Source: Syntrophomonas sp.
Lineage (GTDB): Bacteria; Bacillota; Syntrophomonadia; Syntrophomonadales; Syntrophomonadaceae
Assembly (NCBI GenBank): GCA_016841425.1
Contig: JAENZE010000001.1
Coordinates: 62,001 to 126,000 of the forward strand
Length of the DNA: 64,000 bases
Reading direction: 5' to 3'
The notes below the pieces were generated by a model that worked only from the letters and a program-made list of their open reading frames with translations, was not told the DNA's origin and ran no database searches. A program made the translations under genes and the position numbers. Below are positions 2,596 to 62,884 of the stretch, piece after piece; positions within the stretch are counted from its first letter, which is position 1; each line of letters starts with the position of its first letter.

Positions 2596-4446
2596 ATGTG
2601 TGGTATAGCTGGTTGGATTAGCTGGAATGAAGATCTCAGGGAGGCAGACGGAATAATCGAAAAGATGTCAGATACCATGCAGCACCGAGGTCCGGATGCA
2701 AAGGGGATTTGGAACTCTCGGCATGCTGCCCTGGGTCATCGGCGCTTGATAGTAGTTGACCCGGAAGGGGGAAAGCAGCCTATGGTCAGGGTAAATAGGG
2801 AGCGGACCTTTGTCATTACTTACAATGGGGAACTCTACAATACCCTGGAATTAAGGCGAGACTTGGAGAAGAAGGGGCATATTTTTTACAGCCGCAATTC
2901 TGATACCGAGGTGCTATTAACTGCCTATATTGAATGGGGTGTAGACTGTGTCAACCGGTTTAATGGTATTTACTCTTTTGGTATATGGAATGAAGAGGAG
3001 CAATCCCTGTTTATGGCCCGGGATCGCATGGGAGTAAAACCATTATTTTACTATTCAGATCAAAGACAATTGCTGTTTGCTTCTGAACCAAAAGCTATAC
3101 TAATTCACCCGGCGATAAAAGCAGAGGTGGATTCGGAAGGACTGGCGGAGATACTCTTTATGGGGCCATCCCGGACTCCAGGCCATGGAATATTTAAAGG
3201 CATGAAGGAACTTAAGCCTGGATGCTGGATGTTGTATAGAGCTGACCATATAATGATTAAGAGGTACTGGGGTCTAAAGAGCCTGAGTCATAACGACAGC
3301 CTGGATGATACTGCAGAACTGCTAAAAGATTTATTCTGCAGCAGTGTAGAAAGACAGTTAATAGCTGATCGGCCGTTATGCACCATGCTTTCCGGGGGAT
3401 TGGATTCCAGTGCTATTACTGCTGTTGCGGCCCGAGTGTATTCCGATAATAAGAGGGACGGGTTAAACACCTTTTCAGTAGATTATGCTGATAATATGAA
3501 ATTTTATACACCCAACCAATTTGAGACCAGCTCAGATAATCCCTGGATTCAACAGGTCTCCGATTATCTGCACACCCAGCATAATTATATTGTACTAGAT
3601 AATCGAGAGCTGGCAGCAGCCCTTGAACCAGCCCTGCTGGCTAACGATATGCCTGATATGACCGACATAAATTCCTCCTTGTATTTGTTTTGCCGGGAAG
3701 TTAAAAAACATGCTGCAGTGGCATTATCAGGCGAATGCGCAGATGAAATTCTAGGAGGTTACCCCTGGTTCCACGATGCTGATGTTATTAAAACCCGGGC
3801 TTTCCCCTGGATAAGGATGCTGCCCGAACGCAGCCGTTTCTTATCAGCAGGATTGCTGAAGCATTTATCCGGGGAAGAATATGTGCGGGATAAGTACCGG
3901 GAAGCCATAAAAGAAGTGCCTATTCTGGAAGGTGAACCGGATTGGGATGCTAGAATGAGAGAAATATCTTACCTGAATATCACTCGCTTTATGCAAACCC
4001 TTCTAGACCGAAAAGATCGGATGAGCATGGCCAATGGCTTGGAGGTCAGAGTACCTTTTGCAGATCATGATTTAGTGCAATATGTCTGGAATATCCCCTG
4101 GCAGATGAAGAACCATGGAGGTAGGGCAAAAGGCATATTTCGCAAGGCACTAACAGGGATACTTCCAAGCCCGGTACTGGAGAGAAAAAAAAGTCCTTAT
4201 CCGAAAACCCATAATCCAATATACCGGGCAGAGGTGCAAAAAGAACTGTTAAAGGTTCTGGATAATTCTGCTGCTCCTATACAGACCCTGATTAATAAAG
4301 ACATTATACGATACTACGTTGAGAGTGGTCGGCCTTTCTTCGATAAGCCCTGGTTCAGTCAATTAATGGGTGATATACAATATATGGCTTATCTCGTGCA
4401 GATTAATCGCTGGTTGGATAAATACGGGATAAATTTATTAATTTAA
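2596..4446 (+). CDS. asnB: Asparagine synthase (glutamine-hydrolysing)
   Basis: Makes asparagine from aspartate, ATP and glutamine-derived ammonia. The protein (616 aa) starts MCGIAGW, so Cys2 is the N-terminal nucleophile of the class II glutaminase domain (about 1-210; RGPDAKG and YNGELYN are present). The C-terminal synthetase domain carries the PP-loop SGGLDSSAI (about 265) and SGECADEILGGYPWF. Length fits the AsnB family. The ATG follows TAGGAGGACAAATAT, a strong ribosome site. It appears monocistronic, with a terminator just before it and an acidic-protein gene 175 bp after. Related aminotransferring synthases of cell-surface pathways cannot be excluded, but standard AsnB is the simplest reading. 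Confidence 0.93.
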   Translation: MCGIAGWISWNEDLREADGIIEKMSDTMQHRGPDAKGIWNSRHAALGHRRLIVVDPEGGKQPMVRVNRERTFVITYNGELYNTLELRRDLEKKGHIFYSRNSDTEVLLTAYIEWGVDCVNRFNGIYSFGIWNEEEQSLFMARDRMGVKPLFYYSDQRQLLFASEPKAILIHPAIKAEVDSEGLAEILFMGPSRTPGHGIFKGMKELKPGCWMLYRADHIMIKRYWGLKSLSHNDSLDDTAELLKDLFCSSVERQLIADRPLCTMLSGGLDSSAITAVAARVYSDNKRDGLNTFSVDYADNMKFYTPNQFETSSDNPWIQQVSDYLHTQHNYIVLDNRELAAALEPALLANDMPDMTDINSSLYLFCREVKKHAAVALSGECADEILGGYPWFHDADVIKTRAFPWIRMLPERSRFLSAGLLKHLSGEEYVRDKYREAIKEVPILEGEPDWDARMREISYLNITRFMQTLLDRKDRMSMANGLEVRVPFADHDLVQYVWNIPWQMKNHGGRAKGIFRKALTGILPSPVLERKKSPYPKTHNPIYRAEVQKELLKVLDNSAAPIQTLINKDIIRYYVESGRPFFDKPWFSQLMGDIQYMAYLVQINRWLDKYGINLLI

Positions 4447-50404: not shown

Positions 50405-50489
50405 GTCGGAGTGGTGGAACCGGCAGACACGTACGTTTGAGGGGCGTATCCGTAACTGGGTGCGGGTTCAAGTCCCGCCTCCGACACCA
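50405..50489 (+). tRNA. tRNA-Leu (anticodon GAG), CCA encoded
   Basis: 85 nt. Acceptor GTCGGAG pairs with CTCCGAC, followed by A and CCA (50486-50489). D arm has GGTGGAACCGG; the anticodon loop is TTGAGGG with GAG at its centre, closed by a TACGT/GCGTA stem; a variable arm of about 14 nt marks a class II tRNA; the T arm is GCGGG-TTCAAGT-CCCGC. Reads CUC/CUU codons. The 3' end is the left attachment site of the element that follows. Confidence 0.95.
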
Positions 50490-52087
50490 ATTCTATGCAC
50501 TAAGTGATCAGGGTAGAAAGATACCCTGATTTCTTCATTTTCTGGATCTAGTTCTAATTGCCTTACAAAAGTGCGGATAAGTTTTTTTCTTTCCGGCATA
50601 GTAGCATTATCAAATACCAGGGAAAAATTGCTAAAGAAATTACGGATCTCATCTTCACTGAAATTAATATTTTGAGGGGGGTTGTCCTTAAGATAATTAA
50701 TCTTAATGTCTATCTGATTTATTTGATCTGTCAGATTATCAGCCTCATCTTTAATTAATAATGGATCTATTCCCGATTTAATTGCATCAAGCAGCCTTTG
50801 TTTTTGTAATACCAGGTTACTCTTTTGCTTATTAAACTCTTTAAGAGTATCATTATACTCCTTATATCCGGCATTTATATCCTTCTGAATATCTTTAATT
50901 ATTTCATCTATACGCTCAGGTGTAGTGTAACGGGTGATAATTTCTTCTAATACCTTTTGTTCAACCGTATTAACGTCTACCATAAATTTATGGGGACATA
51001 AGGCCTCACCTTTATACCTATGCTGACCGCAAATATATTTTCTCCAGTGCCGGGAACTCGATCTGTAACCTATAACATTACCACCACAAGCAGCACATGA
51101 AAACATAGGATTACCTTCTAAATTCTTGCCTGTAAAAAGATACGGGCTATTCTTGGTTCTGCTTATGGTAAAGTCTGTTTGTCCTCTTGCATGCCTCTTT
51201 AGTGCCATTTCCAGTTCTTCTTCTGTAATAATTGCCGGGTGTGCATTTGGTACTTCCACCCATTCTTCTCTTGGGTTAAATCGTGTGCCCATTGTTTTTC
51301 TATTCTCTTTATTCCAAAAAGCAGTTCCTGCATACTGCTCTAATCTATTTGCTCTTAGCATTTCAACTATGGTTGATGTTCCCCATGCTTTGTTTCCTGG
51401 GGCAGGTATGTTATTATCATTCAAATAATCCCTGATTTTGTTATAAGACATTTCCTGGTTAGTATAGAGATCAACAATTATCAATTTAGCTATAGGTGCA
51501 TTATCAGGGTGCAGATCCCAAATGCTTTTAATAATTGGCTTACCTTTAGAATTTACTCCTCTGTTAAGATGTATTATTTGATAACCATATGGAGGTCTCC
51601 CCCCATTCTTATAACACCATCCAGTTTCAGGATCTCTCTGTTTAACATTACCGCTCATACCCCTAATAACATTATGGGAAATATCCATTGAATGAGCTTC
51701 ATTTTTTAGCTCTCTTATACCTTCCAGCCATAAACCAGATGATGTCCTGGGATTTATATTTTCTTCACTGGCGTGTAATAGCTCTATCCCATGTTTTCTT
51801 AATAGTTTTTTGGTGCTGGATGCTACATCACGAGTACGAGCAAAACGGCTGGAATCATCGACAATAATAAAATTTGGTCTAGTATTAAGGCTATCAGCTA
51901 TCATCTGATTAAAGCCTTCCCTGTGTTCATCATGGTAAGCTGAGCTGCTATCTTGATAAGTCTGCACAATTTTAATGTCCTGGTTATCTGCAAATATATG
52001 TATCCTGGATAATTGCTCAGGTATTGAATTGCCTTGCTTTTCCTGATCCTGGGTGCTTACTCTTACATAAGCAAATGCAGTTTTCAA
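50468..52087 (-). CDS. Large serine recombinase (integrase)
   Basis: 539 aa. Resolvase domain (about 1-150) with catalytic Ser11 in YVRVSTQDQ and the Arg pair in DSSRFAR; Recombinase domain (about 165-270: GGRPPYGYQ); zinc beta-ribbon (about 330-375: CAACGGN...CGQH..GEALCPHK); long coiled coil (about 385-450). The last nine codons lie at the tRNA border and the stop TGA (50468-50470) is inside the tRNA-Leu gene, so the final residues come from tRNA DNA. Integrates and excises the element; serine recombinases in tRNA sites are less common than tyrosine ones. Confidence 0.93.
   Translation of the reverse strand: MKTAFAYVRVSTQDQEKQGNSIPEQLSRIHIFADNQDIKIVQTYQDSSSAYHDEHREGFNQMIADSLNTRPNFIIVDDSSRFARTRDVASSTKKLLRKHGIELLHASEENINPRTSSGLWLEGIRELKNEAHSMDISHNVIRGMSGNVKQRDPETGWCYKNGGRPPYGYQIIHLNRGVNSKGKPIIKSIWDLHPDNAPIAKLIIVDLYTNQEMSYNKIRDYLNDNNIPAPGNKAWGTSTIVEMLRANRLEQYAGTAFWNKENRKTMGTRFNPREEWVEVPNAHPAIITEEELEMALKRHARGQTDFTISRTKNSPYLFTGKNLEGNPMFSCAACGGNVIGYRSSSRHWRKYICGQHRYKGEALCPHKFMVDVNTVEQKVLEEIITRYTTPERIDEIIKDIQKDINAGYKEYNDTLKEFNKQKSNLVLQKQRLLDAIKSGIDPLLIKDEADNLTDQINQIDIKINYLKDNPPQNINFSEDEIRNFFSNFSLVFDNATMPERKKLIRTFVRQLELDPENEEIRVSFYPDHLVHRIGVGGGT
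50478..50489 (+). other. attL core (tRNA-Leu 3' end)
   Basis: CCTCCGACACCA, identical to 56254-56265. Includes the discriminator base and CCA, so the tRNA stays functional after insertion. Confidence 0.8.
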
Positions 52088-52098
52088 TCTAATCCCCC

Positions 52099-52842
52099 CT
52101 AAAGCTCCTTGCTGTAGGACTTCACCTTGCCGATTATTTTCAAAGACTTTTTGCTTATCGTTAAAGGTTCAAAATTTGTATTTTCAGCAATAAGGGCATA
52201 CTTCTTGTCAATGACAATACAACGTCTTATGACATAATTATCTTTTGAAATTATGGCAACAACAATATCCCCATTATTTACGGTATCGGCTTTATCAAGT
52301 TGGATTCTTGCTCCTTCAGGAATCAATGGTTCCATTGAATTATCCGGCATAGTTAAACCGAAATGAGGGTTCAGCATTATATTAGTATCCTGGTCATTGA
52401 GGTCCTTAAAAGTTATAATATCTGTTATATCATCTAACATTCCTGTAAGCTCCTCTTCGTTTATCATTTTAATTAGCTCAAGATCCGTAATTTTATTTAC
52501 CTGTTCTTCTGCCATTTGTGCCATATCAGGTGGAAGTTGTGTCATTATCGTTACTCTAATGAATTTTCTTAAAAAGGTTAATATTTGATCAATTAGTCTA
52601 CGCATGGCCTCTGGTGCCTTATCTCGATATGCTTCAAAAAGTAAATCATCAGGATCGGCATTACAGACTTTAGCCAGGGCAATATTAACCTCATCAGATG
52701 CAGGAGGTTGTCCCGGGCTTTGCAGTTTACTTATGTAAGAAGGATCTATATTTACATGGTACTGCTTCAACCCTTCAGCAACTTCTTTTAATGTCAATCT
52801 GCTGTTTTTAACAATCTCTGAAACCATTTGATTATATGACAT
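52099..52842 (-). CDS. XRE-type repressor with S24/LexA-like C-terminal domain
   Basis: 247 aa from ATG 52842 behind GGGAGTG. The N-terminal HTH (about 5-65: LTLKEVAEGLKQYHVNIDPSYISKL) is followed by a helical linker and an S24-like domain with Ser in MPDNSMEPLIPEG. The usual catalytic Lys (as in xxVKR) appears to be Arg here (NYVIRRC), so self-cleavage may be lost or the fold only retained for dimerisation. Divergent from the Rep operon; it probably represses Rep and recombinase expression. Confidence 0.82.
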   Translation of the reverse strand: MSYNQMVSEIVKNSRLTLKEVAEGLKQYHVNIDPSYISKLQSPGQPPASDEVNIALAKVCNADPDDLLFEAYRDKAPEAMRRLIDQILTFLRKFIRVTIMTQLPPDMAQMAEEQVNKITDLELIKMINEEELTGMLDDITDIITFKDLNDQDTNIMLNPHFGLTMPDNSMEPLIPEGARIQLDKADTVNNGDIVVAIISKDNYVIRRCIVIDKKYALIAENTNFEPLTISKKSLKIIGKVKSYSKEL

Positions 52843-53045
52843 AAAATAACACTCCCTTCTCATAAATAGTATCCTCAAATGAGGCATAAATCAAACATTA
52901 AATATTGTATATTCATTCAATAATATTGACAATATTTTCATGAGAGTTTACTATAAGGTTAACATTATTTATTGCTATTTTTTTTACCCAATAGCATGAA
53001 AAATAATTCAACATAAATTACTAATAATTCAAAGAGGTTAACGGA

Positions 53046-53258
53046 ATGAGAGAGAATCAAAGTATTAAAAACAAAGATGCAAACTTAAATATAATTTCAA
53101 ATACAGCGAGTATTAATGATTCTTTATTCAGTTCCATAACCAATGAAAGAGTAAAGCTCATTCAACAAATAACTGTACGTTACTTCTCATCTCCCCACGT
53201 TAAGGACAACCAATTAAATCATAATCTGTTAGTTAATGCTTTTTCCCCTGGCGGATAG
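53046..53258 (+). CDS. Small protein upstream of Rep
   Basis: 70 aa, start ATG 53046 after AAAGAGGTTAACGGA. Polar, Asn/Ser-rich, with a helix ITNERVKLIQQITVRYF; no known domain. Its TAG stop (53256-53258) shares one base with the GTG of Rep, so Rep translation is coupled. It may regulate replication copy number. Confidence 0.55.
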   Translation: MRENQSIKNKDANLNIISNTASINDSLFSSITNERVKLIQQITVRYFSSPHVKDNQLNHNLLVNAFSPGG

Positions 53259-53296
53259 TGGGGGGTTACCCAGGGGGGCCCCACTACCGCCAGGGG
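53245..53296. repeat. 18-bp inverted repeat at the Rep start (candidate double-strand origin)
   Basis: CCCCTGGCGG-(A)-TAGTGGGG (53245-53263) pairs with CCCCACTACCGCCAGGGG (53279-53296); one bulged A and a 15-nt G-rich loop. It spans the stop of the small protein and the start of Rep. Very G+C-rich against A+T-rich surroundings. It may be the Rep nick site (origin) and/or block Rep translation. Confidence 0.7.
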
Positions 53297-54016
53297 ATAT
53301 GCATTAAGGAAGAAGGTGATTATCTGGCTGCAGACATAAAAAACACAAGAATATATGATTTTGGGAACGATTTTGAAGCAATCTATTATAGATTAGGATG
53401 GGGTCATACTTCTAACACAGAGCAAAAGTTTAAACGTTCTCCCCGAGGTTGTTCTTCTGATTATGAAAGAAATCGGAAACGAAACATTCAAAAAGCTAGA
53501 TCAAAGATTAGAAGAATTATTAAATCGTATAACCTGGATCGGTTTGTTTCCCTTACATTTGCTGAAAACCAACAAAACATTAAAGAAGCAGATCATGAAT
53601 TTAGGAAATTTATGAAACGACTAGCAAGAAGATTCAAAGATCTTAAATATGTGGGGGTTAGAGAGTTTCAGGATCGGGGTGCTGTACATTACCATCTAGC
53701 TGTCAACCAATATATCAAACAAAAGCAATTAGCTGAGTTGTGGGGTCAAGGGTTTGTTTGGATTGAGAAAAAGACTAATGGGCAGGATCATTTAATTAAT
53801 TACCTTTGCAAATATCTTACAAAAGATGCAGGAGATGAAAGATTAAAAGGGCTTCATCTATACTTCTGTTCTCAAGGTTTAAAGATCTCATATGAAGATA
53901 AGTATTTTAATTCATCGAATGGAATGTTTGAATACCTGGAAGAAACACATGGGCAAAAGCTGAAAGGGAAAAGGATATTACATTTTCAGGAAGGGCAGGT
54001 GATATGGATTGGATAA
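53258..54016 (+). CDS. HUH endonuclease-like replication initiator (Rep)
   Basis: 252 aa from GTG 53258. Motif 1 RFVSLTFAEN (about 93-102), HUH motif GAVHYHLAV (His-Tyr-His, about 142-150) and a Tyr pair in NYLCKYLTKD (about 180-189) are in the order expected of rolling-circle Rep/relaxase-like enzymes that nick one strand and link to Tyr. The first 20 residues are encoded in the hairpin and are Gly/Pro-rich; no other start is available. It gives the element a circular replication mode. Confidence 0.78.
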   Translation: MGGYPGGPHYRQGICIKEEGDYLAADIKNTRIYDFGNDFEAIYYRLGWGHTSNTEQKFKRSPRGCSSDYERNRKRNIQKARSKIRRIIKSYNLDRFVSLTFAENQQNIKEADHEFRKFMKRLARRFKDLKYVGVREFQDRGAVHYHLAVNQYIKQKQLAELWGQGFVWIEKKTNGQDHLINYLCKYLTKDAGDERLKGLHLYFCSQGLKISYEDKYFNSSNGMFEYLEETHGQKLKGKRILHFQEGQVIWIG

Positions 54017-54125
54017 TATCAATAAACCCGTATCATGGCAGGATGAACGAAATCGTATTTGGGCGTTAATTATTGAGTTACAAAGACGAGTTAAACATCT
54101 AGAAAAACAAGCACAAGGCCAGTAG
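54009..54125 (+). CDS. 38-aa helical protein overlapping the Rep end
   Basis: TTG 54009 behind CAGGTGATATGGA, overlapping the last codons of Rep by 8 bp. The sequence after LDNINKPVSWQDERN is a helix with heptads (ALIIELQRRVKHLEKQAQ). Such small coiled-coil products often follow Rep genes; the role is unknown. Confidence 0.5.
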   Translation: MDNINKPVSWQDERNRIWALIIELQRRVKHLEKQAQGQ

Positions 54126-54128
54126 CAA

Positions 54129-54266
54129 CCGGCGATAGCCGGCGTACCTTGATATGGAGATGGGCTAGTGTGCAAGGCTAGCTGCCAGGGGCAGATCACG
54201 AAGCGCAGCGGAGGGTCTGCCCCTCAGTCTGCCTATAAGCACACGCCCAGAGGCTCCATGTCAAGG
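54129..54266. ncRNA. Highly structured G+C-rich block (RNA or single-strand origin)
   Basis: Hairpin CCGGC/GCCGG (54129-54142), then three nested stems: CCTTGATATGGAG with CTCCATGTCAAGG (54147-54159/54254-54266, 13 pairs incl. one G-T); TGGGC-(TA)-GTGTGC with GCACAC-GCCCA (54161-54173/54239-54249); and GGGGCAGA with TCTGCCCC (54188-54195/54216-54223). All pair almost without fault over 120 nt. No ORF. In rolling-circle replicons such a structure downstream of rep is often the single-strand origin; a structured RNA is the other option. Confidence 0.6.
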
Positions 54267-54443
54267 TTTGCGGATGGCCTCTTCTTTACTTGATATATAG
54301 GATTAATTTGACCGCGAAAATTATTGGGCTGATACGGGCTATAAAAATTTGTAAATATTACATGTAAAACAAGTGCATCTGGTGCATAATATTCCCATAT
54401 GATATTATAAAAAAAGGAAAGTTGGAATTACGGAGAGATGATA

Positions 54444-55190
54444 GTGAATATTAAACAAGCAAATGTAGTATTTGAATTTGATATTGATCCTAATATTATG
54501 CTAACTCTTGGGGGTCAAATTATTGAAATACAAAAAAAATATAACTGCAAGGTTCAGCAGATTAATGCTCAGAAAGCTCCACCTGATGTTCCGCGAATTG
54601 TAATAATATTTGAAAATTATATTATTAATATTTGCTTAAATAGATGCGAGTATATAATGCAGATTCCAAGTCATATATCTAATAATATTAATAATTGTAT
54701 AGATTACGTTAGCAATAATATTTCTCAGATTAATAGATATATTGCAGTAGACGATAGAGGGTATAACTGGACTGGTGTAATATTCCACAATGAATATCCA
54801 TCACAAGATAAGGAATTACCTTTGCTAGAATTAATAACACCTTTGTTTGATAGAATGATAAATATTGAAAGAAACAATCGAGAATTATCTTCCTTTCAGC
54901 TTCAATTTGGATTTAAAGAAGATGATTTGTTTTGCAATTATACAATTGGTGGTTATGAAACGAGAAATATTGAAGTGGAAATTAAACCTGGCAATAATGT
55001 AATTAATGTTAAGAAAGAAGAAGGGAAGAAAATTGAACAAGGCGTTTTGATAACAGTTGATATTAATGATAAACCTAAAATTGTGCATTTAAACGCTATT
55101 GATGATATGAATGTAATTTTTAGTAATATAAGATCTAAATTATCGAAACTGTCTGATACATTGAATATTAGAGGTGTTATTGATGAGTGA
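54444..55190 (+). CDS. Cargo operon gene A, unknown function
   Basis: 248 aa from GTG 54444 (6 nt after GGAGAG); ATG 54438 abuts the ribosome site. A+T-rich, Asn/Ile-rich. Starts with a beta-strand pair NIKQANVVFEFDI and has a mixed alpha-beta pattern with no recognisable motif; no signal peptide or membrane helix. Overall size and strand order remind me of the TIGR04255 family, but no signature allows a firm call. It overlaps gene B by 8 bp. Confidence 0.6.
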   Translation: MNIKQANVVFEFDIDPNIMLTLGGQIIEIQKKYNCKVQQINAQKAPPDVPRIVIIFENYIINICLNRCEYIMQIPSHISNNINNCIDYVSNNISQINRYIAVDDRGYNWTGVIFHNEYPSQDKELPLLELITPLFDRMINIERNNRELSSFQLQFGFKEDDLFCNYTIGGYETRNIEVEIKPGNNVINVKKEEGKKIEQGVLITVDINDKPKIVHLNAIDDMNVIFSNIRSKLSKLSDTLNIRGVIDE

Positions 55191-55542
55191 GATGGCGCTT
55201 AAAAAAAGTCTTACAGCAACTACATCATCGAACGTAGTATATCTACCAAGAAGAAGTAGCTCTCAGACTGTTGATTATGATTATTCTTTGGGCGGTATTA
55301 TAGGAAATCCTCATTTTGAGGAATATTTAAAGGATTTCATAGAAGGTTATATTGAAAAAAGTATGATTGATAATCTTTCTTTGGAACAACGGAAGAGCAA
55401 TAGTCCTTTCGATTCCGTATATTTAGCTGAACTAATTCCGGATCAATTATCTAATTCAAACATTATTAATATTAAATGTTTATCAGATAGGATTATAGAT
55501 TATTCTGATTCTATACAATTTAACGATGAATGGGATGATTAA
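55183..55542 (+). CDS. Cargo operon gene B, unknown function
   Basis: 119 aa from ATG 55183 (GGTG ribosome-like site inside gene A). Residues 15-35 are polar and basic (SSNVVYLPRRSSSQ), followed by helical segments (FEEYLKDFIEGYIEKSMIDNL) and an acidic tail ending in DEWDD. No domain recognised. Gene C begins 5 bp downstream. Confidence 0.55.
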   Translation: MSEMALKKSLTATTSSNVVYLPRRSSSQTVDYDYSLGGIIGNPHFEEYLKDFIEGYIEKSMIDNLSLEQRKSNSPFDSVYLAELIPDQLSNSNIINIKCLSDRIIDYSDSIQFNDEWDD

Positions 55543-55547
55543 TACTC

Positions 55548-56087
55548 ATGTACCTTAGTGATGATCTAACTGAAAGAGCTTTTTTGAGACAAGGAGATAT
55601 TATTTGTGACACGCATCTTCTTGGAGCTATAAATTTAAATTCGATCATTTATGAAGTGAATGCGGCTGGAGATAAGGTTGGATGGCGTGCATCTGCAAAA
55701 CCAACCTTTGGGCCAGCCATAGTGCTATCGCATTCCTGTGAATTGGATAGAGATGGAAATGGCATAAAGGTAACTAGTATTATTCTTGCTCCTATTCGGG
55801 ATGTAAATAAAGCTACATCCCCTGAAAAAGTCAGAGAATTGATTGAAAGTAATTTTATTGGTGAAGATACTACTCACAGTTATTTAAAATATTTTTACTT
55901 GGAACCACATCAATTATTATCTCAATTCCCAAATGGTACCATTGCTGATTTTTCGAAAATATATAGTGTTAGAAAACAATCATATGATCTATTGGTGCAA
56001 AACAAAGTACTTCAATTAGATTATGATGTTGTTGGGCATTTAGCTACAAAGTTGGCTTTATATTACTATAGGCAACAAACTGCATAA
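55548..56087 (+). CDS. Cargo operon gene C, SHSCELDR-motif protein
   Basis: 179 aa. FLRQGDIICDTHLL is followed by the motif IVLSHSCELDRDGNG (about 64-78), a His/Cys pair I have met in scattered hypothetical proteins of mobile regions, and by SIILAPI. A metal- or thiol-based active site is possible. No signal peptide. Together with genes A and B it forms a compact three-gene unit at the attR end, a usual place for cargo. Defence is one possibility. Confidence 0.6.
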   Translation: MYLSDDLTERAFLRQGDIICDTHLLGAINLNSIIYEVNAAGDKVGWRASAKPTFGPAIVLSHSCELDRDGNGIKVTSIILAPIRDVNKATSPEKVRELIESNFIGEDTTHSYLKYFYLEPHQLLSQFPNGTIADFSKIYSVRKQSYDLLVQNKVLQLDYDVVGHLATKLALYYYRQQTA

Positions 56088-56253
56088 TGTTTTAAATGTA
56101 AAATTAAAGAACATCTAATATTTCATTGGCTCATTTAATTACGACTTTTATAATAAATTACTTTTAAATAATCTTACTTAGAATAATGTAAAGCCAACTT
56201 AAATATTGACTACAAGAAACACTCCAAGATTTGTGCATACTACCCGTGTAGCC

Positions 56254-56265
56254 CCTCCGACACCA
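56254..56265 (+). other. attR core
   Basis: Second copy of CCTCCGACACCA. Only the tRNA 3' end is repeated; the sequence to its left (TGTAGCC) is element DNA and to its right host DNA. Confidence 0.78.
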
Positions 56266-56326
56266 TGATTATCAGTACCAAAATGGTATTTGAATATAAT
56301 TTTTAATGCATTATTATCAGCAATGG

Positions 56327-56360
56327 TAGCCGAATCACAGCATTCGGCTATTATCTTTTT
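56327..56360 (+). terminator. Terminator beyond attR, probably of the tRNA originally
   Basis: TAGCCGAAT / ATTCGGCTA (56327-56335 with 56342-56350) followed by TTATCTTTTT, 62 bp after attR. Before insertion it would have stood about 60 bp after the tRNA-Leu gene. Confidence 0.8.
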
Positions 56361-56406
56361 ACAGCTGGTTATCTAACCTCTTCTTTCCTGTAAAGGCATT
56401 CATAAT

Positions 56407-56571
56407 TTATGGCCATTCCGACACTAACTGCCCCGAAGAATTATATAACTTCCCGGGATCCCCATCGTTATTCCATATATATAAGCCGGTCCGTTTCAAG
56501 TAAGAGGGATACTTATCTATAGCTTCTTGTCCGCTTGTAACATAAACACACAGTACCGCCAGGTGATAGGA
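56407..56571 (-). pseudogene. Remnant of a protein C-terminus
   Basis: A 54-codon open stretch without ATG, GTG or TTG near its start. It reads as real protein (VTSGQEAIDKYPSYLKRTG, then LYIWNNDGDPGKLYNSSG and SEWP before TAA). It is probably the tail of a gene lost around the integration hot spot. Family not recognised. Confidence 0.35.
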
Positions 56572-56728
56572 TCAACCCTTCCGAAAAATACATGAAAATA
56601 TTATATAACAAAATTGGTATATGCTGGTAACCCATTTCGGCTTGCATGCATATTATAATAGACTTACTTATCCACACTTTAAAGGGCATTTGAATAAATA
56701 GTATAAATGAGAAGAGAAGGTGTTAATC

Positions 56729-57473: not shown

Positions 57474-59063
57474 ATGAACGTAGTAGAAGGGTGGAATATG
57501 TATTTAGATATTCAGGATCTGAAGAAAATGCATTTTAATGTGAGCCAGATATCCCGGCGTCTAGATCTATCTCGAACCACAGTATATAAGTATCTGGATA
57601 TGACACCAGAAGAAATGGAGCAGATTTTAGAGAATCGAAAAACCAGAACTAAGAAATTAGATAAGCATCGAGAGTTAATTAAATCCTGGTTGATACAATA
57701 TCAGGATATGACTAGTGCACAGGTGTTCGACTGGCTGCAAGAAAGAAAACTTGATGGAGGTGTTAGCGAAGGAACAGTCCGAAATTATGTCAGACAATTA
57801 CGAGAGGAGTGTGGTATTCCCCAGGTTAAGTATGTACGTCAATATGAATCCGTTGATGAATTACCTGCCGGACAGCAAATGCAGATGGACTTTGGACAAA
57901 TCGGCCTACGTAGTAGCATTGGTAGAATAATAACTCTTTACTTTGCAACTTTCGTGCTGGCCCACTCCCGTCATAAATATGTGGAGTGGTTGGATCGTCC
58001 GTTCACAACTCGAGATTTAATAAATGTTCATGAAAATGCATTTGAATACTATGGAGGAATGACTAAGGAAATCGTATACGATCAGGACCATCTAATATTG
58101 GTCAGCGAAAATGGAGGAGACCTATTGCTCACCAAAGAGTTTGCAGACTACCAAAAGAACCGAAGATTCAAGATTTACATGTGTAGAAAAGCGGACCCGG
58201 AAACTAAGGGAAAGGTCGAAAATGTAGTGAAATATGTAAAAAGGAACTTTGCCAAAAACCGTACCTTTCACAACTTGGAAAAGTTAAACGAAGACTGTTG
58301 GGCCTGGTTAGAACGAACCGGCAATGGAAAAGTTCACAATACGACAAAAGAGATACCGGCAGAAGTGTTCGTCCTCGAAAAACAACACCTCATTCCGGCA
58401 CCCCACAAGATAAATATTTCAACTACTAAGATTATAACCAGAGTGATCCGTAAAGACAACACCATCATTTATCAGGGTAACCGTTACGCCTTACCTTTAG
58501 GAACTTATGCACCTGATCGGATGGTTGTCGTGCAAGAAGATAAGGGAATGCTGATTATTGAGAATCCTGATAACAACCAAGAAATAATCCGCTACCCCGT
58601 ATGCCTTGAAAAGGGCCGACTCATTAAAAGCAGTGATTGCCGCAGAGAAAAAGATAAAGGCATTGAGGCCTATTTACAAGAAGTGGCACAAATCCTTAAT
58701 GATTCCCCACAAGCTTATGATTTTCTAAGTTTAGTGCGACAGGAAAAACCTCGCTACATACGGGATCAATTGAAGATAATTAAAGACCACAGCAAGGATA
58801 AACCTTCTGAGATTATCACCAAGGCGCTAAACTATTGTTTGAAAAATAGACTTTACGGAGCAACCGATTTTGTGGATTCATTAAATCATTTTAACCATTT
58901 TTATTATCTTGCAGGAGAAAAACCGACTACGGGAAATCAGATAAATCCACTTTACGAGGTGGACCGTTCTGTACTGAAGACCCGTGTAGAAGTGCGGAAT
59001 ATGAACATCTATATACAAGAATTACAGGGAGTGAGAGAGTGTCAGCAGAACTTGAACGACTAA
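57474..59063 (+). CDS. istA: IS21 transposase IstA
   Basis: 529 aa. N-terminal HTH (FNVSQISRRLDLSRTTVYKYL, about 20-40), then an rve-type DDE domain: Asp in QMQMDFGQ, Asp in EIVYDQD and Glu in TKGKVENVVKYVK. The C-terminal beta barrel is present. The gene overlaps istB by 25 bp. An ATG at 57498 (MYLDIQDL) is an alternative start; 57474 has GGAGGAAGC ahead of it. Confidence 0.95.
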   Translation: MNVVEGWNMYLDIQDLKKMHFNVSQISRRLDLSRTTVYKYLDMTPEEMEQILENRKTRTKKLDKHRELIKSWLIQYQDMTSAQVFDWLQERKLDGGVSEGTVRNYVRQLREECGIPQVKYVRQYESVDELPAGQQMQMDFGQIGLRSSIGRIITLYFATFVLAHSRHKYVEWLDRPFTTRDLINVHENAFEYYGGMTKEIVYDQDHLILVSENGGDLLLTKEFADYQKNRRFKIYMCRKADPETKGKVENVVKYVKRNFAKNRTFHNLEKLNEDCWAWLERTGNGKVHNTTKEIPAEVFVLEKQHLIPAPHKINISTTKIITRVIRKDNTIIYQGNRYALPLGTYAPDRMVVVQEDKGMLIIENPDNNQEIIRYPVCLEKGRLIKSSDCRREKDKGIEAYLQEVAQILNDSPQAYDFLSLVRQEKPRYIRDQLKIIKDHSKDKPSEIITKALNYCLKNRLYGATDFVDSLNHFNHFYYLAGEKPTTGNQINPLYEVDRSVLKTRVEVRNMNIYIQELQGVRECQQNLND

Positions 59064-59794
59064 AAAGTGATATGAAACGTTTAAACATGACGGAAGCAGC
59101 CTCGGTGGTAGAAGAAATACTACTTGATGCCCAGATGAAGGAAACCAGTTATCAAGTGTTTCTAATGAACCTGGTAAAGCATGAGATAAAAAAACGGGAA
59201 GAAAAACAGCTAGGAAGGCTCTACAAGCTAGCAGCCTTCCCTGAACACAAAACTCTGGATGATTTTGACCTTTCAGAGCAACAGTCTCTAAGCAAAAAGC
59301 AATTAAAACAGTTACAAGAGCTTATCTGGCTGGAACAGGCCTACAATCTGATTTTGTTAGGACCTCCCGGGGTTGGGAAAACATGTTTGTCTATTGGACT
59401 GGGGATTGAAGCTATTAGCCGGGGCTACCGGACAACTTTTGTTCAGATGGATGAGCTGATACGTCTTTTAAAAACTGAGGAAATCAGCCGCAATTCCAGG
59501 GCAAAAGTAAAAAGAATGGTCGGTTCTGACCTGGTGATTATTGATGACTTAATGTTTATGGCTATTGACCGACACGAGGCAAACCTCTTTTTTCAACTAA
59601 TCAACAAGCTCTACGGCCAAGCTTCCATCATCATTACATCAAACAAGGGACCAGAAGATTGGGGAGATATCCTGGGTGACCCCGCCATTACAACTGCTAT
59701 TCTGGATCGCTTGATTCACAAAAGCGAGGTTATCTATCTAACCGGTGACAGCTATCGTATGAAGCACCGCCAAACCATTTTTGGCAATAATTAG
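59039..59794 (+). CDS. istB: IS21 helper ATPase IstB
   Basis: 251 aa AAA+ ATPase of the DnaC group. Walker A GPPGVGKTCLS (about 107-117) and Walker B DLVIIDDLMF are intact; ITSNKGPEDWGDILGD holds the sensor region. GTG start inside istA. Together with IstA it selects the target and assembles the transpososome. Confidence 0.95.
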   Translation: MSAELERLKSDMKRLNMTEAASVVEEILLDAQMKETSYQVFLMNLVKHEIKKREEKQLGRLYKLAAFPEHKTLDDFDLSEQQSLSKKQLKQLQELIWLEQAYNLILLGPPGVGKTCLSIGLGIEAISRGYRTTFVQMDELIRLLKTEEISRNSRAKVKRMVGSDLVIIDDLMFMAIDRHEANLFFQLINKLYGQASIIITSNKGPEDWGDILGDPAITTAILDRLIHKSEVIYLTGDSYRMKHRQTIFGNN

Positions 59795-62200: not shown

Positions 62201-62884
62201 TTATGGTTGGCTAGCTTTTTTACGGGCTATTTCCTGGTCCTGTTTTTCATAGAGTATTTTACATAAACGGTCAACAACTGAATCGGACAGTTTGGTGACG
62301 GGACGACCACTTGTAAGAGCATAATAATAGGTGCGAGAAATTTTTTCAAAAAGCTCTACATTACGATAGGCGTTTTCAATTGATATTCCCAGGCTCAGTG
62401 CTCCGTGGTTTTGAATAACATAACAGTTACAGCGGTTATTTAATAAGGATACTAAGTTTTGCGATAACTGATGACTGCCTGATAAGGCATAAGGGATGAT
62501 ATCAATAATATGTCCCGTATTTATGGTTACCTCATCAAAAAGAGCCGGAATTGGTTCATTGATCAAAGCGAATATGCTGGCATATACTTGATGCGTATGG
62601 ATGATAGCATTAACATCAGGACGGTGTTTATATACTTCTATATGCATTTCTGTTTCAAGGGAAGGCTTAAATTTTCCCTCCAAGACATTCATTTCAAAGT
62701 CAACTATGCATATGTCATCGACGTGAATACCAAAGTAGTCCATACTGGTTGGAGTTATTGCTATAGTATTTTCCCCCTCGATCAGTATGGATATATTGCC
62801 GCCAGTGCCAACTGTATAGCCTTTCTGCGATAGACGCTGGCTATATTGTAAAACTGATTCTTTGTAAGCGTGATACTTACTCAA
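62201..62884 (-). CDS. Class II aldolase/adducin family protein
   Basis: 227 aa from TTG 62884. GNISI near the N-terminus, zinc ligands in AIIHTHQVYAS (HxH), Glu in FDEV and His in VIQNHGALSLG follow the L-fuculose-phosphate aldolase pattern. A sugar-phosphate or related aldol substrate is likely. AAGGAAC ribosome site on the minus strand. Confidence 0.9.
   Translation of the reverse strand: MSKYHAYKESVLQYSQRLSQKGYTVGTGGNISILIEGENTIAITPTSMDYFGIHVDDICIVDFEMNVLEGKFKPSLETEMHIEVYKHRPDVNAIIHTHQVYASIFALINEPIPALFDEVTINTGHIIDIIPYALSGSHQLSQNLVSLLNNRCNCYVIQNHGALSLGISIENAYRNVELFEKISRTYYYALTSGRPVTKLSDSVVDRLCKILYEKQDQEIARKKASQP

Follow-up and report, generated by a model that had tools for sequence, protein, structure and literature searches.

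The 64,000-nucleotide stretch of Syntrophomonas sp. DNA analyzed here (contig JAENZE010000001.1; "the window") carries, at the 3′ end of a tRNA-Leu(GAG) gene, a compact insertion of 5,776 bp (50490-56265) that, judging from its genes and ends, is probably a precisely bounded integrative rolling-circle plasmid. A first-pass annotation made from the letters alone had proposed an integrative element with a serine recombinase, an HUH-type replication initiator (Rep) and a tRNA target; this proposal is supported, and the ends prove to be exact. The target gene lies at 50405-50489 on the forward strand (ARAGORN; Rfam tRNA), and its 3′ end is left intact by the insertion. The final 12 nt of the tRNA, CCTCCGACACCA (50478-50489, forward strand), form the left att repeat and recur at 56254-56265, in the right end of the element (56233-56265, forward strand). 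The flanking repeat had been part of the proposal; both copies were located, and the exact 12-mer occurs nowhere else in the window, against a chance expectation of ~0.0006 copies per 10 kb. Since these 12 bases are also present on the element itself, the tRNA stays whole.

tRNA-Leu(GAG) is also present in four other genomes of the genus. In the same-genus genome G004 the element is absent, and the base equivalent to 50489 is joined directly to that equivalent to 56266, with zero bases gained or lost and ∼94%–96% identity on both sides of the junction. Such a precise junction in an element-free relative had been predicted beforehand, and the base-exact unoccupied site identifies 50490-56265 as an insertion. 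The element had also been described as more A+T-rich than its flanks. This holds on the left (34.3% GC in the element versus 41.9% in the flank) but not on the right, where the first 1.2 kb is equally A+T-rich (35.8% GC) and contains the remnant of another element.

Integration is attributed to a large serine recombinase (LSR) of 539 aa, encoded on the reverse strand at 50468-52087. The protein has a TTG start, Resolvase and Recombinase domains, a catalytic serine (Ser11) in the motif YVRVST and a match to the integrase family phrog_95. When attP was rebuilt by joining the right and left ends, the best dyad was centered at 56254|56255, with 15/25 positions paired and arms GTGCATA/TATGCAC 30 nt apart, the GTGCATA arm lying in the right end; only 0.035% of element positions reach a dyad as good. 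Its center coincides exactly with CC, the dinucleotide that opens the 12-bp repeat. A short identical core is used in LSR recombination, of 2 bp in Tn4451 (PMC5704250), and on this ground, together with the position of the dyad, we infer that crossover takes place at CC (predicted at 50478-50479 in the left copy), the remaining 10 bases of the repeat serving to rebuild the tRNA 3′ end. The attB dyad is weak (5/25 paired), so the crossover assignment relies on attP and the boundary of the shared sequence. The features by which an LSR-integrated element is recognized (domains and catalytic serine, precise insertion with a short core, attP dyad) were thus all found by computation.

Replication would depend on the HUH Rep encoded at 53258-54016 on the forward strand, a member of the REP_ORF2-G2P family (9e-21) that matches PHROG 3419, rolling-circle initiation. 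It contains H144-Y-H146 and the double-tyrosine motif Y182-LCK-Y186-LTK (YLCKYLTK). In an alignment with plasmid and inovirus Reps, the invariant HUH residues and both tyrosines are all kept. The predicted double-strand origin nick site, CTTTACTTG^ATATATAGGATTAAT, lies downstream of the gene at 54284-54307 (forward strand), with the nick placed between 54292 and 54293; its core reads ACTTG^ATATATAGGAT (54288-54303). The motif TTAACTTGATTATA, or a near form of it, is found 5′ of Rep in the plasmids pGTG5, pYA01-2, pHT926 and pEF60063-3, in inovirus bajarodino 9 and in the genome G013, at a distance of ∼40-190 nt. Aligned with pGTG5, the element's CTTTACTTGATATATAGGATTAAT (54284-54307) is identical in 23/25 columns, with two single-base gaps, and 0/200 shuffles did as well; the 16 nt ACTTGATATATAGGAT of the element's origin recur unchanged in intergenic DNA of pKH9. 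For the majority of the other relatives, no individual origin alignment reached significance; the assignment is therefore based on pGTG5, pEF60063-3 and pKH9, together with the position of the site beside a strongly structured region. Of the features of rolling-circle replicons of the phiX174/pC194 type, the HUH motif and catalytic tyrosines are present, and an origin nick site is recognized by sequence match. The nick motif itself resembles CTTG^ATA, the nick site of phiX174 and pC194.

Structured DNA had been noted within the element in the first-pass annotation, and two regions are indeed far more stable than shuffled sequence. One (54116-54287, forward strand; z score −5.5 for 54100-54310) lies directly 5′ of the nick site and is probably a Rep-binding or single-strand-origin structure. 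The other is a strong hairpin formed by an inverted repeat at 53242-53299 (forward strand; z score −7.0 for 53230-53320); the alignment of Rep with its homologs suggests a true start at ~53303-53330, just downstream of the hairpin. The hairpin was also considered as the replication origin and dropped, since only 10-11-nt words are common to it and relatives and 54284-54307 carries the conserved nick motif. A separate observation concerns locus L031 of G013, where two copies of the nick motif (at ~6508 and 7023), each preceded by an identical stretch, lie 515 bp apart upstream of a Rep gene; the duplication may reflect rolling-circle insertion or rearrangement.

Between recombinase and rep lies the gene for a CI/LexA-like repressor with an S24 domain (52099-52842, reverse strand; Peptidase_S24 3.7e-15). 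The reading frame is open to 52887, with the likely start at 52842, and the match to phrog_37705 begins at residue 16. Domain and PHROG matches thus agree with the recombinase, repressor and Rep originally described. The repressor and rep genes are divergent, and the interval between them holds, at 52900-52954, an inverted repeat, AAATATTGT/ACAATATTT, and two overlapping divergent sigma-70-like promoters recognized as consensus matches. The inverted repeat is likely to be the repressor's operator. A 70-codon open reading frame (ORF) upstream of rep (53046-53258, forward strand) has no family match and may encode a leader peptide or be no gene at all.

Taken together, these features outline a possible cycle. 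The LSR would act on the attP of a circular form and the attB at the tRNA-Leu(GAG) 3′ end, recombining the two, which would account for the junction seen. In the integrated state, the repressor, transcribed away from rep, would likely hold both recombinase and rep low through the overlapping divergent promoters. Lifting of repression would release the circle, and Rep, as its motifs and the origin match suggest, would nick ACTTG^ATA at 54292/54293 and start rolling-circle replication. Domain and PHROG scans of the element's ORFs detected no transfer or virion genes, so spread between cells would require the machinery of another element, phage packaging or DNA uptake.

Several observations weigh against an integrative rolling-circle plasmid of this kind. 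The nick site lies 3′ of rep, and in most relatives it lies 5′. The site differs from the pGTG5 form by the gain of one base and the loss of another. In the repressor, alignment to LexA/UmuD shows Ser184 to be kept and the position of the catalytic lysine to be occupied by Arg221, which makes induction by self-cleavage (SOS) doubtful. Finally, no second element combining this LSR with this Rep was found: 0/3 genomes with LSR relatives have the Rep, and the loci of those relatives contain no Rep match. A formerly mobile insertion that is now fixed would fit the element's presence in a single genome of the genus, the lack of a second copy and the decayed tandem neighbor. Such a dead insertion is nonetheless unlikely, given that the att repeats are identical and that the dyad, the LSR, repressor and Rep frames and the origin are intact by sequence.

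Rep might instead double as a relaxase and make the insertion an integrative mobilizable element (IME) in the narrow sense, served by a helper conjugative system in the manner of the streptococcal Rep_trans/MobT-type IMEs. Its size and layout fit, and the relaxases of 118/144 streptococcal IMEs are relatives of rolling-circle initiators (PMC5357655). Rep, however, belongs to the G2P family and not to Rep_trans/MobT, and no coupling protein or origin of transfer was recognized in the element; we regard this reading as distinctly unlikely. Domain scans of the ORFs, which would not reveal an origin of transfer, found none of the known relaxase families. Nor did any ORF tested contain a TraB/FtsK or type IV secretion system domain, the mark of a conjugation gene of its own, which sets the element apart from integrative and conjugative elements, including those of actinomycetes (AICEs). 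The nearest phage Reps are inoviral, inovirus bajarodino 9 has the element's nick motif 5′ of Rep, and the inovirus phiRSM1 is reported to have a serine recombinase at a tRNA (PMC3218068). All of this would suit a filamentous or small single-stranded DNA prophage, or a satellite of such a phage, reduced by the loss of its structural genes. Matches to plasmid Reps are no weaker, and the element's ORFs include no Zot/pI ATPase, coat or assembly gene by which an inovirus prophage would be identified, so that this origin appears highly improbable.

The preferred reading, an integrative rolling-circle plasmid, has counterparts in several known systems. Mycobacterial AICEs share the serine recombinase, the tRNA-Leu target and the integrated state (Ghinet et al., 2011; PMC3218068), and AICEs likewise carry a replication-initiation gene, of rolling-circle type in many of them (PMC3218068); they differ in belonging to another phylum and in having an FtsK-like TraB for conjugation, of which the element has none. 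The Ralstonia filamentous phage phiRSM1 (cited in PMC3218068) is likewise a small rolling-circle replicon inserted by a serine recombinase at the 3′ end of a tRNA gene, but it is a virus with virion genes and its target is tRNA-Ser. The ssrA islands of Dehalococcoides (McMurdie et al., 2011; PMC3146451) resemble the element in occupying the 3′ portion of a tRNA-like gene (with a 20 bp repeat), in tandem stacking and in a 540-aa LSR, DsiB, the gene for which extends across attL into the target RNA gene. They differ in their target, transfer-messenger RNA, in a second small recombinase, DsiA, and, according to the authors, in having no genes for independent replication. The plasmids pGTG5, pHT926, pYA01-2 and pKH9 have the Rep family and nick motif of the element; unlike it, they are free plasmids, and their gene tables list no integration module.

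A Rep of this type (E 1e-12) was found in 12 of 398 genomes of the phylum, that of the window included. Tyrosine integrases lie close to Rep at five loci (L075, L076, L078, L079 and L080; Pfam, loci inspected), and L081 contains an element almost identical to that of L080; a tRNA adjoins five of the six. The layout of tRNA, integrase, sometimes a helix-turn-helix regulator, and Rep thus recurs at five other Bacillota loci, with tyrosine integrases. The compact elements L076 and L078-L081 share tRNA target, Rep family and small size with the element and differ in having a tyrosine integrase in place of the LSR. L079 even occupies the same tRNA-Leu(GAG), with a 23-bp repeat 7.2 kb away. The plan is therefore already known, and the present element uses an LSR instead. 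LSRs do occur within 8 kb of Rep in L082 and L083, not at a tRNA. Single-query searches with Rep and LSR in viral contigs, and with Rep in genome contigs, returned no relatives. The combination had been called unusual, and within the scope searched this stands for other Bacillota chromosomes, where the Reps are mostly accompanied by tyrosine integrases; LSR insertion into tRNA genes has also been called rare (PMC3218068). AICEs, phiRSM1 and the Dehalococcoides islands are precedents, however. The combination is rare yet has precedent in other bacteria, and the element is not of a new kind.

Its interest lies in its simplicity. Here an LSR takes the usual role of a tyrosine integrase in a very simple form, entering a tRNA 3′ end without harm, and the element is plasmid-sized with a replication origin that can be named by prediction. 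It also supplies a compact attB/attP pair, resolved to the base and located in a conserved gene, for relatives of Syntrophomonas, a group with few genetic tools. Lastly, the predicted C terminus of the recombinase depends on the integration state. The last 22 nt of the gene lie inside the tRNA, where the end codons read GVGGGT-stop and the stop is the antisense of the T-loop. In the circular form, the frame is computed to run 17 codons past GVGG, giving 554 aa ending in HRIGVGGATRVVCTNLGVFLVVNI as against 539 aa ending in HRIGVGGGT. The 22-nt overlap recurs in a second LSR in G004, in L034 and L041 (tRNA-Leu gag) and in L030 (tRNA-Thr), and longer overlaps occur in L035, L037 and L040 (tRNA-Met, -Cys and -Glu). 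For DsiB, whose gene likewise reads into an RNA gene, functional relevance was suggested (PMC3146451). It is conceivable, though improbable, that the recombinase senses its integration state, the longer tail in the circle altering its activity or direction. If so, this would be a recurrent trick, as unrelated LSRs (24.5% identical) at tRNA-Leu(GAG) share the 22-nt overlap and the T-loop stop.

Relatives of the recombinase show other arrangements. Two Syntrophomonas-group genomes encode, in the same neighborhood, a ∼55% identical recombinase without the catalytic N-terminal domain (L019 8600-9886; L020 9116-10327), possibly kept for another role, e.g., DNA binding. Two further relatives (37%–40%; L027 612-2345 and L028 1-1554) contain, terminally or close to the terminus, the sequence HGEPYHK, which resembles the RlmH C terminus and suggests insertion at the rlmH 3′ end as in staphylococcal cassette chromosome elements; in L027, an S24 repressor relative lies beside the LSR. 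In L033 (4846-7377), AAA ATPase-like and DNA adenine methylase-like genes, possibly defense cargo by their resemblance, lie near an LSR relative on a contig that ends inside tRNA-like sequence.

The tRNA-Leu(GAG) site is a hotspot. The sequence after the tRNA in G004 is the 3′ end of the second LSR gene (L010 8343-9878), which encodes a 511-aa protein with Resolvase, Recombinase and Zn ribbon domains (Pfam), 24.5% identical to the window's LSR. Immediately outside the element, window positions 56266-56383 are 93.8% identical to the 3′ end of this gene, and 56407-56583 match a further gene adjoining it, with the middle part missing. This comparison indicates that the element entered a tRNA already holding an older, now decayed LSR element. 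In another genome, G003, the gene equivalent to that at 62201 in the window lies within 94 bp of the tRNA, implying that ∼11.7 kb has piled up in the window: the new element, the remnant, an IS21-type transposon and other genes. The transposon, with an IstA/IstB-like pair, lies at 57474-59794, between the tRNA and the gene at 62201.

The right part of the element holds three accessory genes on the forward strand, encoding 250 aa (54438-55190), 122 aa (55174-55542) and 179 aa (55548-56087). A similar row (~245, 100-115 and 205-215 codons) occurs beside prophage-like genes in the genome G164 and in the Leptospira phage LnoZ_CZ214. The third gene is phrog_4575-like (E 3.7e-5, weak), and the gene order is matched in L055 and the Leptospira phage; in Pseudomonas phage Dobby it lies within a row of small genes. 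Homology to the phage cassette is probable for this gene. For the other two the correspondence is one of position, since similarity to their counterparts is weak (first gene) or absent (second gene). The cassette thus resembles a phage-carried one and is plausibly protective. PADLOC gave no defense match for the accessory genes, and AlphaFold2 models made without alignment were unusable (mean predicted local distance difference test scores 35 and 39). As a single query against 63 genomes, 398 genomes and plasmids, the third gene matched only itself; its PHROG was found at two loci. In L056 (G150), an rlmH-like gene is immediately followed by a phrog_4575 gene (1408-1902, 2624-3103), which suggests that islands at the rlmH site may also carry this accessory gene.

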